DNA of 41,683 nt from Coriobacteriales bacterium (lineage in GTDB: Bacteria; Actinomycetota; Coriobacteriia; Coriobacteriales; UBA8131): assembly GCA_031279835.1 (NCBI GenBank), contig JAITHV010000005.1, positions 1-41,683 on the forward strand. The letters run 5' to 3'. Positions within the stretch are counted from its first letter, which is position 1. The number at the start of each line of letters is the position of its first letter. This document shows positions 24,297-29,356 of the stretch, piece by piece. A program made the position numbers and the translations under genes. Under the pieces are notes generated by a model, which saw only the letters and a list, made by a program, of their open reading frames with translations, had not been told where the DNA came from and ran no database searches.

Positions 24297-24746
24297 ATGG
24301 GCCAGGCTGACGTTTTGCCGATCGCATTGCGCGCGCTGCTTATATTGGGGGCCGTCGGCATCCTCGTCTACTTCATCGCCCAGATACGCGCACGAAGGCT
24401 GCAGATCGACTACGCCGTCTTTTGGGTGCTCTTCAGCGTGCTGCTGGTCTTTTTTGCGGCACTGCCTGACGTCTTGGTCATGGTCTCGCACCTGCTCGGC
24501 TTTGCCTCGGCGGCAAACCTCGTGTTTGTGCTGGTGATCTTCCTGCTCATACTGCGCCTCTTTTCTGTGAACCGGCGGCTCTCACGCAGCGAGCAGCGCA
24601 TAGAGGACTTGACGCAGCGTCTTGCCCTGCTCGAGAAGCGACTGGCCGAGCAGCCGCAGCAAGCCGAGCACGGTGACGAAAAGCAAGTCGAGTGCTGTGA
24701 CACGCACGGTGGCGAGCGCTGTGACACGCACGGTGGCGAGCGGTAG
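24297..24746 (+). CDS. DUF2304 membrane protein
   Basis: A 149-residue protein with three hydrophobic helices (about residues 10-28, 38-55, 65-85) and the DUF2304 core IRARRLQIDYAVFWVLFSVLLVF. A charged helix with heptad spacing follows (SRSEQRIEDLTQRLALLEKRL), probably a coiled coil. The last 16 residues are CDTHGGER twice, from a 24-bp DNA duplication. Members commonly sit behind a short GT2 as here and are thought to anchor or partner it; exact function is unknown. Starts three bases after the GT2 stop. Confidence 0.85.
   Translation: MGQADVLPIALRALLILGAVGILVYFIAQIRARRLQIDYAVFWVLFSVLLVFFAALPDVLVMVSHLLGFASAANLVFVLVIFLLILRLFSVNRRLSRSEQRIEDLTQRLALLEKRLAEQPQQAEHGDEKQVECCDTHGGERCDTHGGER
24694..24741. 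repeat. 24-bp tandem duplication at the 3' end of the DUF2304 gene
   Basis: Two exact 24-base copies, 24694-24717 and 24718-24741, encode CDTHGGER twice. Confidence 0.95.
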
Positions 24747-24760
24747 GACCCCGACCGCCC

Positions 24761-24799
24761 AGCGTGAGCCCTCAGCGCGAGCCTTCAGCGCGAGCCCTC
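24761..24799. repeat. Three 13-bp tandem repeats over the rpiB stop
   Basis: Copies at 24761-24773, 24774-24786 and 24787-24799 (consensus AGCGCGAGCCCTC) differ by one base each. The stop codon of the leftward rpiB part (24785-24787) lies in them. The unit is not a multiple of three. Confidence 0.9.
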
Positions 24800-25228
24800 A
24801 AGCTGCTTGAGCTTGTTCAGGCGCTGCGTGTGCCGGCCGCCCTCAAACGAGGCCGCCAAGAAGGCGTCGAGTATGCGGCAGTTCTCCTCGAGCGACACGA
24901 AGCGGCCCGAGAGCGTCAGGATGTTCGCGTCGTTGTGCCTGCGGGCCATCTCGGCCAGCTCAGGCGACGTGACGTTGGCCGCTCGCGCGCCTGCTATCTT
25001 ATTAGCTGCCATCGCCATGCCGATCCCCGTCCCACAGACGAGCACGCCAATCCCGCCGTCGGAAGCGGCGACTTCCTGGGCGACCTTCTGCGCGACGTCA
25101 GGGTAGTCCACGCGACCGCTGTCGTACGGACCGAGGTCCACTACCGTGTGGCCGTGCTTGCGCAGGTGGTTGGCGAGTGCCGCCTTCTGCTCGAACCCTG
25201 CGTGATCGCTTGCAATGCTGATGGTCAT
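24785..25228 (-). CDS. rpiB: RpiB portion with its own ribosome site (alternative product)
   Basis: Ribose-5-phosphate isomerase B interconverts ribose 5-phosphate and ribulose 5-phosphate. From the internal ATG at 25228 the product is 147 residues, the normal RpiB length, with the catalytic Cys in CGTGIG and His in the RRHNDANIL region. The bases just before the ATG read GAGGAGTCGGCC, a good ribosome site at seven-base spacing. That site also encodes Glu-Glu-Ser-Ala of the linker in the longer frame. This is listed separately because the sequence supports both readings: independent initiation or a fused C-terminal domain. Confidence 0.7.
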   Translation of the reverse strand: MTISIASDHAGFEQKAALANHLRKHGHTVVDLGPYDSGRVDYPDVAQKVAQEVAASDGGIGVLVCGTGIGMAMAANKIAGARAANVTSPELAEMARRHNDANILTLSGRFVSLEENCRILDAFLAASFEGGRHTQRLNKLKQLEGSR

Positions 25229-26752
25229 GGCCGACTCCTCGTCGTCTTTCCGCTGCCGCTCGTTGCTGGCAGCCCGGTACTCCTTTGGTCCCCCCGCCCC
25301 TGCGCGCAGGAGAGTAGGATCGTCGCCTACACAGCTTAGTATGGTCGAAGGCACGCCCGGCACCGCCCCTGCGTCCACGACGACGGCCGCCTTGGCAGCG
25401 ATCGCCGCGTCAAGACTCTCGACGCTCAGAGCGGGCGGCTGCCCCTGGAGGTTTGCGCTCGACGCAGCGATCGGCACACGCAGCTCAGCCAGCACGGCCA
25501 GCGCCACGGGATGGTCGGGCACCCGAAGGGCAATGGTGCCGTCGGCGGCGGCGAAGCCCTCGGGCACGTCGCGACCGGCCTTGAGCACGAGGGTGAGCGC
25601 GCCGGGCAGATACGCGGCGGCAAGGTCGAGCGCCTTGTGAGAAATGTCGGCAGCGTAGCGCGCAATCGCCTCGGTGCTTTCAACAAGCCAGGCAACCGGC
25701 TTCTCGCGGTCGCGTCCCTTGAGCTTAAAGACCTTGTGCGCGTTGCCTGAGGCCGTGACGGCCACGCCGAGGCCATAGACCGTGTCGGTCGGGAATACGA
25801 CTGCCTCGCCTGCCTTGAGCGCCTCGACGGCCGGGCAAAGCCAGCGGCTTGCGTGCCAGTCAGCCTTGACCACGCCCCGACGACACGCCACGATGAACCG
25901 CTCGCGCCCGGTGAGGTCGCGCCGTATGCCGACGCCGAACCACAGGCCATGCGCCTTGCAGGCCTCAGCCGCGACCGTCAGTGAGTCTTCGTGGAGCTCG
26001 CAGGCGAGCATGCCGCCGGGGCGCAACAGCGCGCCAGCCTGGTCCAGGATGCGCCTGAAGAGGCCAAGGCCGTCTGCTCCCCCGTCGAGGGCGAGCGCCG
26101 GCTCGTGGTCGGCTACCTCGCGCGGCAGCTCCGCAAGCAAGGCAGTCGGGATGTAGGGCGGGTTTGACACAACCACGTCGAAGCTCGCGTGAGCAGCAGG
26201 GTCTGCCACGAGCGACGACGCGAGGTCGTCCACAAAGACTGTGAGCTGGTCATTCAGAGAGATCCCGAGCTCAAGAGCGTTCTCGCGGGCGAGGTTGACC
26301 GCCTCTTGGCTGATGTCGGTGGCAACAACCACTGGATGGGTTTCTCCGGCCTCTTTGAGCAGCGACAAGGCGACGCATCCGCTGCCGGTGCACAGGTCGA
26401 GCACCTTAGGCCGAGGCAGCGGCTCCCCTGAGCAAGCACGCGTCAGCCGTTCCAAGACGACGTCAACGAGCACCTCAGTCTCTGGCCGAGGGATAAGCAC
26501 GCCTGGCCGTACCGTGAGCCTCACGCGCCTAAACCATGCATGTCCCACGATGTACTGAGCCGGCTCCCCTGCCAGATGCCGTTCGACCCATTGATCCAAG
26601 AGCTGGCGGCTTTCGTCATTTGACCTACTTGCAGGCGTCAAATGCAGGCAATCGACAAAGATCTTCGCGACGGCTTCAGGACACGCCGCCCCGCCCAATC
26701 GCAGCTTGTTGGCAGCAAGTTGAGTGAACTCGCTGAACGATCCGTCTTTCAC
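24785..26752 (-). CDS. prmC: PrmC-Sua5/TsaC-RpiB triple-domain frame
   Basis: One uninterrupted frame of 655 codons joins three normally separate proteins. Residues 1-291 are PrmC, which methylates the GGQ glutamine of release factors (SAM loop VLDLCTGSGCVALS, catalytic NPPY at 197-200). Residues about 302-495 are Sua5/TsaC, which makes threonylcarbamoyl-AMP for the tRNA t6A modification (PTDTVYGLG, KGRDREKPVAWL, ASSANLQGQPP). Residues 509-655 are ribose-5-phosphate isomerase B (SDHAGFEQKAAL, VCGTGIGMAMAANKI, HNDANILTLSGR). The GTG start is three bases after prfA, fitting PrmC acting on RF1. No stop separates the parts. An ATG at 25228 with GAGGAG upstream opens the RpiB part, so RpiB may also, or only, be made separately. 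Confidence 0.9.
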   Translation of the reverse strand: MKDGSFSEFTQLAANKLRLGGAACPEAVAKIFVDCLHLTPASRSNDESRQLLDQWVERHLAGEPAQYIVGHAWFRRVRLTVRPGVLIPRPETEVLVDVVLERLTRACSGEPLPRPKVLDLCTGSGCVALSLLKEAGETHPVVVATDISQEAVNLARENALELGISLNDQLTVFVDDLASSLVADPAAHASFDVVVSNPPYIPTALLAELPREVADHEPALALDGGADGLGLFRRILDQAGALLRPGGMLACELHEDSLTVAAEACKAHGLWFGVGIRRDLTGRERFIVACRRGVVKADWHASRWLCPAVEALKAGEAVVFPTDTVYGLGVAVTASGNAHKVFKLKGRDREKPVAWLVESTEAIARYAADISHKALDLAAAYLPGALTLVLKAGRDVPEGFAAADGTIALRVPDHPVALAVLAELRVPIAASSANLQGQPPALSVESLDAAIAAKAAVVVDAGAVPGVPSTILSCVGDDPTLLRAGAGGPKEYRAASNERQRKDDEESAMTISIASDHAGFEQKAALANHLRKHGHTVVDLGPYDSGRVDYPDVAQKVAQEVAASDGGIGVLVCGTGIGMAMAANKIAGARAANVTSPELAEMARRHNDANILTLSGRFVSLEENCRILDAFLAASFEGGRHTQRLNKLKQLEGSR

Positions 26753-26755
26753 GCG

Positions 26756-27832
26756 TCAGACCGCCTGTTCAAGCCTCTTTGCACGGTCTGCGGCTATGAG
26801 CGCGGTGATAAGCTCTTCGAGGCCAGCGCCTCCTGCTCCGAGCAGGATGCTGTTGTACGTGCCGTTGAAGCCGATGCGGTGGTCGGTCACGCGGTCTTGC
26901 GGCCCGTTGTAGGTGCGGATCTTCTCAGCACGGTCGCCGGTGCCGATTTGGCTGCGGCGCTGTTCTCCCAGCTCCTCTTGTTGCTCTGCGAGCATACGGT
27001 CATAGAGACGCGCGCGCAGCACCTGCATGGCCGCCTCTTTGTTTTGCAGCTGCGACTTCTGGTCTTGCGACTGGACCACGAGACCGGTGGGCAGGTGCGT
27101 GATGCGCACGGCCGAGTCTGTCGTGTTGACACACTGGCCGCCCGGGCCGCCTGCCCGGTAGACGTCAATGCGCAGGTCGCCCGGGTTTATCTCCACCTCT
27201 ACCTCGTCTGCCTCAGGCAAGACGGCGACCGTCGCCGTCGAGGTATGTATGCGCCCCTGGCTCTCGGTCTTCGGGACGCGCTGGATGCGGTGGACGCCGC
27301 TCTCGAACTTCATGTAGGAGTAGACCTTGCTGCCGGTGACCTTGAACTCGATCTTGTTGAAGCCCCCGGCGTCAGAGGGCGACGAGTCCAGCTGCTCGAC
27401 CTTCCAGCCCTTCTCGTCGGCGTAGCGCAGGTACATGCGGTAAAGGTCTCCAGCGAAGATTGACGCCTCGTCGCCGCCCGCGCCGGCGCGCAGCTCCACG
27501 ATGATGTCTTTCTCGTCGTTGGGGTCGCCCGGCACGAGCATGACCTTTATGCGCTCCCCCATCTCTTCGAGCGCGGTTTGGAGCTGCTCGATCTCTGCCT
27601 GGGCGAACTCCTTCATATCGGCGTCGCTCTCGGTGCGCAGCAGGTCGCGCGCCGCGGCCAAGTCGTCGGCAGCCTTGAGGTAGCCACGCGCCTCACGCGC
27701 GAGCTCGGCCTGCGAGGCGTGCTCTTTGGCAAGCCGGGTGTATTCTTTCTGGTTGCCTAGGACGGCAGGGTCGCCGAGCCTGGACTCCAAGTCTTCGTAC
27801 GCGGCCGTGATCTGCCGCAGCTTCTCTTGCAT
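26756..27832 (-). CDS. prfA: Peptide chain release factor 1
   Basis: Recognises UAA and UAG stop codons and releases the peptide. The 358 residues are normal. The stop-reading and GGQ regions are visible: [23 protein letters not shown] contains the family signature and [25 protein letters not shown] holds the catalytic GGQ that PrmC methylates. The ATG at 27832 is preceded by GAAGG; the open frame upstream is short and unrelated. Its neighbour is the prmC part of the next frame, a usual pairing. RF1 matters for the TAG-interrupted sigma gene at 32.3 kb, since RF1 is what would end translation there. Confidence 0.96.
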
Positions 27833-27877
27833 GGGGATAAGACCTTCTATCTCGTGACGGTTCGGGCAAGTCACGCT

Positions 27878-27886
27878 ATAGTAGCA
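27878..27886 (-). promoter_or_regulatory. Extended -10 promoter of prfA
   Basis: TGC-TACTAT on the minus strand, about 46 bases before the prfA ATG. An AT-rich dip in GC surrounds it. It gives a leader of roughly 40 bases. Confidence 0.45.
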
Positions 27887-27973
27887 CATGCACGCGGGCC
27901 ATAACGGCGCTTGGCCGCGTGCTTCCGCGCGTCAGACGGCGCCGCGGCCGGCCAGCGCCAGATTGTGAGAAGA

Positions 27974-28373: not shown

Positions 28374-28487
28374 CTATAGCGGCAACACCGAGCCCACCTG
28401 AGTGATCGCCCAGACTTGGGCGTTGGTGCCGTCGTAGGCGCCGGTGTCGCTCACGTCGATCTGCTTGTTGGCCGCGAGTCGTGTCAT
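28374..28487 (-). pseudogene. 37-codon frame resembling a ricin-type lectin repeat
   Basis: The ATG overlaps the DUF554 stop (ATGA), then 37 codons follow to a TAG at 28374. The middle reads NKQIDVSDTGAYDGTNAQVW, which looks like one lobe of a beta-trefoil lectin repeat (DV-x-G-x-NGT-x-VQ-x-W). A full domain needs about three such lobes, so this looks like the end of a degraded gene, or a chance translationally coupled peptide. The lectin likeness is by eye. Confidence 0.35.
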
Positions 28488-29317
28488 TGCCCTAGTAGGC
28501 CACCCAGTATGACTGCCGCCACAAGTGACGGGAGCATGTTGCCGGCCTTGAGCTTCTTGATGCCGATGATCTCGATGCCAAGCGCTATGAGCATGATGCC
28601 GCCCACCAGCTCGATCGAGGCAATCATGGCAGGCGTGACGTAGGGGCCTGCCAGCCCTGCGAGCAAGACCAGGCCGCCTTCGACCGCAAACACGGTGACA
28701 GCTGAGGCGCCGACGCCGACGCCCAGTCCCGTGGCGAGCGCTACAGAGGTGACGCCGTCGAGCACAGACTTGAGGTACAGCGTGGACGGGTCGCCGAGAC
28801 CGGCCTGAAGGGACCCCATGACGGTCATCGCCCCCACACAGAAGAACACCGACGCCGCGACGAAGCCCTCAGCGAACCGCGCATTGCCCTCGCCGCCGCC
28901 CTCGGTGCCACCCTCGGTGCCGCCGCCCTTACCGTCGCCCTCGCCGCCGCCCTCACTGCTGGCGACCGCGCCGCCGCCGCCCTCGCCGCCGCCGCCGACC
29001 GGGCTGCGCGAGCGGCTGGCAAGTCGGTGCATCAGCCCGCCCAGCCCCTCCAGGCGCTCCTCGATGCGCAGCGCCTCACCGCACAGCGAGCCGGCCACCA
29101 AAGAGACGACCAGGACGACTGCGGCAAGGCTGCCTACCTTCGTGGCGCCAAGATCGCCGAAGCCGCCTACGGCAATGACAGCCCCGAGGCCAATCGTGCA
29201 TGACCCAATGGCAAAAAACACCACCTGTCGAAGGCGCTCGGCTATCAGGCGCCCAAAGACGACGCCTATGAAAGTGCCGAGTATAACGGTCGCAACGTTG
29301 AGCAGTACTCCAGTCAC
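28484..29317 (-). CDS. DUF554 (YqgA-like) membrane protein with Gly-rich loop
   Basis: A polytopic membrane protein of unknown function, 277 residues from the GTG at 29317, which has AAGGGGGG at usable spacing; a GTG two codons earlier abuts that site. The two halves match DUF554: GVLLNVATVILGTFIGVVFG and GSCTIGLGAVIAVGG first, then FCVGAMTVMGSLQAGLGD, LKSVLDGVTSVALA and GGIMLIALGIEI. Between them the cytoplasmic loop carries about 37 residues of Gly/Glu/Ser/Thr repeats that are not part of the family. The stop overlaps the small lectin-like frame downstream. Function unknown. Confidence 0.87.
   Translation of the reverse strand: MTGVLLNVATVILGTFIGVVFGRLIAERLRQVVFFAIGSCTIGLGAVIAVGGFGDLGATKVGSLAAVVLVVSLVAGSLCGEALRIEERLEGLGGLMHRLASRSRSPVGGGGEGGGGAVASSEGGGEGDGKGGGTEGGTEGGGEGNARFAEGFVAASVFFCVGAMTVMGSLQAGLGDPSTLYLKSVLDGVTSVALATGLGVGVGASAVTVFAVEGGLVLLAGLAGPYVTPAMIASIELVGGIMLIALGIEIIGIKKLKAGNMLPSLVAAVILGGLLGQ
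28888..28999. repeat. GCC/CTC triplet-rich low-complexity tract in the DUF554 gene
   Basis: Irregular repeats of GCCGCCGCCCTC-like units encode a GGGE/GGTE-type linker. Length steps are multiples of three and the frame is kept. Confidence 0.85.
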
Positions 29318-29356
29318 CGCCACCCCCCTTTAGACGCCCGTATGTGCGAGGTGCCC

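Follow-up and report, generated by a model that had tools for sequence, protein, structure and literature searches.

A single reading frame for PrmC, TsaC and RpiB in a Coriobacteriales genome, joined along a conserved gene order

The enzymes PrmC, TsaC and RpiB share one uninterrupted reading frame in a metagenome-assembled genome of the Coriobacteriales. The frame lies on the minus strand of the window (the whole 41,683-nucleotide stretch of DNA that was analyzed), a strand absent from the preliminary description of this DNA, and runs through 655 stop-free codons from a GTG start to a TGA stop (26752..24785). Our preferred reading, to which we assign a probability of about two in three, is that the conserved order prfA-prmC-tsaC-rpiB has here lost both of its inner stops, the first join being one that recurs in the order and the second arising by loss of a stop, and that the products would be a protein of ~70 kDa together with free RpiB. 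What is new is the TsaC-RpiB join, observed once; the PrmC-TsaC fusion and the constituent enzymes are already known.

Comparison with Pfam and NCBIfam profiles places the three domains in succession and without overlap along the 655-residue translation, each above its curated cut-off, which bears out the proposal of a single stop-free triple frame. The PrmC/HemK domain (residues 1 through 294; 25871..26752, minus strand), a release factor N5-glutamine methyltransferase, matches TIGR03534 over residues 38 through 287 (223.5 bits; cut-off 199.1) and has its S-adenosylmethionine (SAM) and NPPY motifs in place (DLCTGSG at residue 119 and NPPY at residue 197). It is followed by the TsaC/YrdC/Sua5 domain, a threonylcarbamoyl-AMP synthase (residues 295 through 488; 25289..25870, minus strand), which matches TIGR00057 over residues 302 through 488 (162.1 bits; cut-off 123.2) and carries PTDTVYGLG at residue 321, the KxR motif within KGRDREKP at residue 345, and the SxN motif as SAN at residue 432. 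The RpiB domain (residues 509 through 655; 24788..25228, minus strand) matches TIGR01120 over residues 511 through 651 (146.6 bits; cut-off 138.65); alignment with solved RpiB chains and the motifs SDHAG, CGTGIG, HND, and GGRHTQR (pattern GGRHxxR) account for the catalytic Cys and His, the SDH motif, and the C-terminal Arg. The catalytic motifs of all three enzymes are thus intact in both the motif reading and the alignments, as had been claimed from the sequence. The rpiB stop codon sits within a 3.2-copy tandem repeat of 13 nucleotides (24760-24800).

Immediately upstream on the same strand lies prfA (26756..27889), encoding peptide chain release factor 1 with PCRF and RF-1 domains and the GGQ motif. 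It ends three bases 5′ of the prmC GTG in the same frame, one stop away (TGA-CGC-GTG). The four genes prfA, prmC, tsaC, and rpiB are therefore successive coding units in one frame, and the lone stop among them is the one after prfA. The position of prfA and its GGQ motif agree with the earlier suggestion that it provides the substrate of the PrmC part; that RF1 is this substrate is expected from the sequence, and the role is a prediction.

The first join is widespread. A search of 399 genomes of the order gave stop-free PrmC-TsaC matches in 19 other genomes, and the shared open frame was verified at every locus that was fetched. On a tree of the PrmC and TsaC domains (58 rows) the label fused or separate changes eight times, at least four of these changes being forced by well-supported branches; judged from these sequences, the join has therefore come or gone repeatedly. 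Within the window's own family, one other genome among the rows in the tree (G004) is also fused; along 2,043 bases it matches the Coriobacteriia MAG Nt197P3bin131 at every position, which places the window in the Coriobacteriia as well. By sequence, the PrmC-TsaC fusion is thus an ordinary and common feature of the Coriobacteriales. Matches in Cutibacterium that seemed to span both domains proved to lie in separate frames and were rejected.

The same two-domain arrangement has been studied in Mycoplasma pneumoniae, where MPN362 is a HemK-YrdC/Sua5 fusion that appears as one full-length protein by western blot; its TsaC part is essential, whereas its PrmC part is dispensable (PMC12494982). Our frame resembles MPN362 in that PrmC is N-terminal to TsaC, both domains occupy a single open frame, also found in the relatives, and this frame is directly downstream of the RF1 gene (PMC12494982); MPN362 differs in lacking an RpiB part and comes from an unrelated lineage. 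The fusion of PrmC with Sua5/TsaC that the preliminary description had put forward is consequently well founded, although it is common in the order and has experimental precedent in M. pneumoniae (PMC12494982). Closer counterparts are the PrmC-TsaC fusions of other Coriobacteriia (for example at loci L002/L031, from MAG Nt197P3bin131, L005, and L173), which have the same two domains in the same order, usually with rpiB next; in these, however, rpiB begins after a stop. PrmC is also the N-terminal part of another bifunctional translation-related enzyme, PrmC-TrmB (NCBIfam NF002421), whose partner is different; with 100 bits, the window falls short of that family's cut-off of 567.

The second join behaves otherwise in our comparisons. 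Genome comparison shows the order prmC-tsaC-rpiB to be conserved across the class Coriobacteriia and part of the phylum, and RpiB is, on this gene order, an old operon neighbor of PrmC and TsaC rather than a surprising partner. Among 72 distinct TsaC-to-RpiB neighbor pairs, 44 share a frame; exactly one stop separates the two genes in 21 of those 44, and the pair in the window stands alone in lacking a stop (0 of the 71 other pairs). Across 400 genomes of the class and 397 of the phylum, no stop-free TsaC-RpiB spanning match was found besides that in the window, all others having at least one stop, including all 21 other spanning matches in the class sample. Long frames that hinted at further TsaC-RpiB fusions (in G019, G144, G163, G073, G551, G520, G571, G086, and others) were rejected, as the domains were separated by at least one stop or lay in different frames. 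No relevant paper on a TsaC-RpiB or other RpiB fusion was found in the literature, as judged by titles and search matches. The idea that RpiB was the least expected member of the fusion therefore holds for the join and fails for the association, and the database search for the same domain order that had been proposed recovers PrmC-TsaC elsewhere and TsaC-RpiB nowhere else in the genomes searched.

The relatives nevertheless indicate how such a join could form. The distance from the TsaC core to RpiB is 66 nucleotides in the window, close to the 72 nucleotides at L111/L112, where one stop intervenes, so loss of a single stop would suffice. At L160:1216-3381 (G053), prmC, tsaC, and rpiB are all in the same frame, each separated from the next by a single stop; losing both stops would produce the arrangement in the window. 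Most likely, then, the TsaC-RpiB join came about by loss of the single in-frame stop typical of the relatives, with the spacing and the rpiB start retained.

As it stands, the join is rare, is seen here alone, and rests on one draft genome. The source assembly, a single MAG of 2.02 Mb (~91% complete), has 134 contigs, the window being number 37; it is the only genome of its genus in the comparison set, and the absence of the stop is therefore documented by this one sequence. An error in the assembly or base calling is the obvious concern, and the sequence offers a place for it: the only homopolymer of six or more bases in the ORF (25290..25295, C on the plus strand and G on the coding strand) falls where the TsaC core ends, at the TsaC-RpiB joint. 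One base fewer in this run, by computation, would end TsaC exactly over the rpiB ATG in an ATGA overlap, a common layout of coupled genes, and would leave rpiB as a separate gene behind a PrmC-TsaC fusion of the ordinary kind; that the join occurs in no other genome searched fits this account too. The linker itself (residues 488 through 508; 25229..25291, minus strand) argues against it. Scored by the codon preferences of genes in the window, it fits frame 0 better than any shifted frame, the one that the artefact would impose included, with a lead of 9.4 nats over the best of them; 1.25% of coding stretches read out of frame attain such a lead. With base-composition models per locus, which set one linker against spacers of divergent genomes, its score is 0.31 nats per codon; the 35 spacers from relatives average −0.07 (SD 0.21), and a single one lies above 0.3. 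Because its periodicity is coding-like and unlike that of the relatives' spacers, a frameshift at the joint is the less likely explanation on sequence grounds, and the tight in-frame spacing of the relatives supplies a ready route by loss of one stop; we regard an artefact as unlikely overall, while giving it real weight.

Under the preferred reading, stop loss along the conserved operon, the frame would be used from two starts. Ribosomes initiating at the GTG at 26752 (Shine-Dalgarno duplex energy −5.3 kcal/mol) would make a ~70 kDa beads-on-a-string protein in which the three enzymes act independently. RpiB retains its own ATG (residue 509; 25228..25226), with the Shine-Dalgarno sequence GAGGAG six bases 5′ of it, within the linker; at −8.2 kcal/mol this is the strongest among the in-frame starts, and some ribosomes probably also initiate here to give free RpiB of ~16 kDa. 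Sua5/TsaC had been described as having no ATG of its own; that is correct, but the in-frame codons GTG288 and GTG294 are candidate starts, albeit with weak Shine-Dalgarno energies (−2.3 and −2.1 kcal/mol). Given the contrast between these starts and that of rpiB, TsaC is probably made only within the fusion and RpiB both ways.

It is conceivable instead that the join is real and that RpiB is produced solely at the C-terminus of the fusion protein, its ATG and Shine-Dalgarno sequence being relics, with a selected advantage such as dimerization of PrmC-TsaC through RpiB. The coding character of the linker would suit this, as would the AlphaFold2 model, in which a helix of moderate confidence (residues 489 through 506) runs into RpiB; model quality is good in the PrmC and RpiB domains but poor in TsaC (residues 380 through 490 below 50, with 15 rows covering the domain). 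MPN362, similarly, yields full-length PrmC-TsaC alone by western blot (PMC12494982). Against this, the relic would be the strongest Shine-Dalgarno sequence among the in-frame starts, and the comparison set includes no close relative in which constraint on the linker would show. We consider exclusive production within the fusion improbable.

The functional copies are probably those in the fusion. In the ~91% complete assembly, a genome search found no second RpiB, no match to RpiA, and no YrdC domain other than one within HypF, and thus the fused copies would probably have to function. We know of no chemistry that connects the PrmC, TsaC, and RpiB reactions; the only link of RpiB to PrmC and TsaC known to us is neighborhood. 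Co-expression is the simplest reading of the fusion, and its benefit, if any, would be production at a fixed ratio rather than substrate channeling. RpiB is an oligomeric isomerase, and one could imagine that it gathers PrmC-TsaC units and couples both t6A synthesis and the methylation of release factors to the state of the pentose phosphate pathway, internal initiation supplying free RpiB in addition, a scheme that we find very improbable. As a general caution, fused genes need not share function.

Stop loss in the operon, as we favor, would give a route from operon neighbors to one protein: in relatives a lone stop divides tsaC from rpiB within a common frame, whereas here it is lost and the downstream start survives. 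For annotation, the genome's TsaC and RpiB, each the sole copy found, are hidden inside a gene that could be named as PrmC alone. A triple fusion of TsaB, RimI, and TsaD has been reported from Coriobacterium glomerans (PMC3571937); it resembles our frame in joining three domains from operon neighbors, in touching the t6A pathway, and in coming from the same class, although the genes differ. The same TsaB-RimI-TsaD fusion occurs in the window's own genome as an 817-residue protein on contig 25 (L232:79-2532), and fused translation-modification genes thus recur in the class.

Two further features of the window lie outside the frame and prfA. Two 24-nucleotide repeats (24689-24742) encode the C terminus of a DUF2304 protein (CDTHGGER twice), and a Gly/Glu-rich low-complexity stretch (28886-28997) lies within the gene for a DUF554 protein (28484-29323, minus strand).
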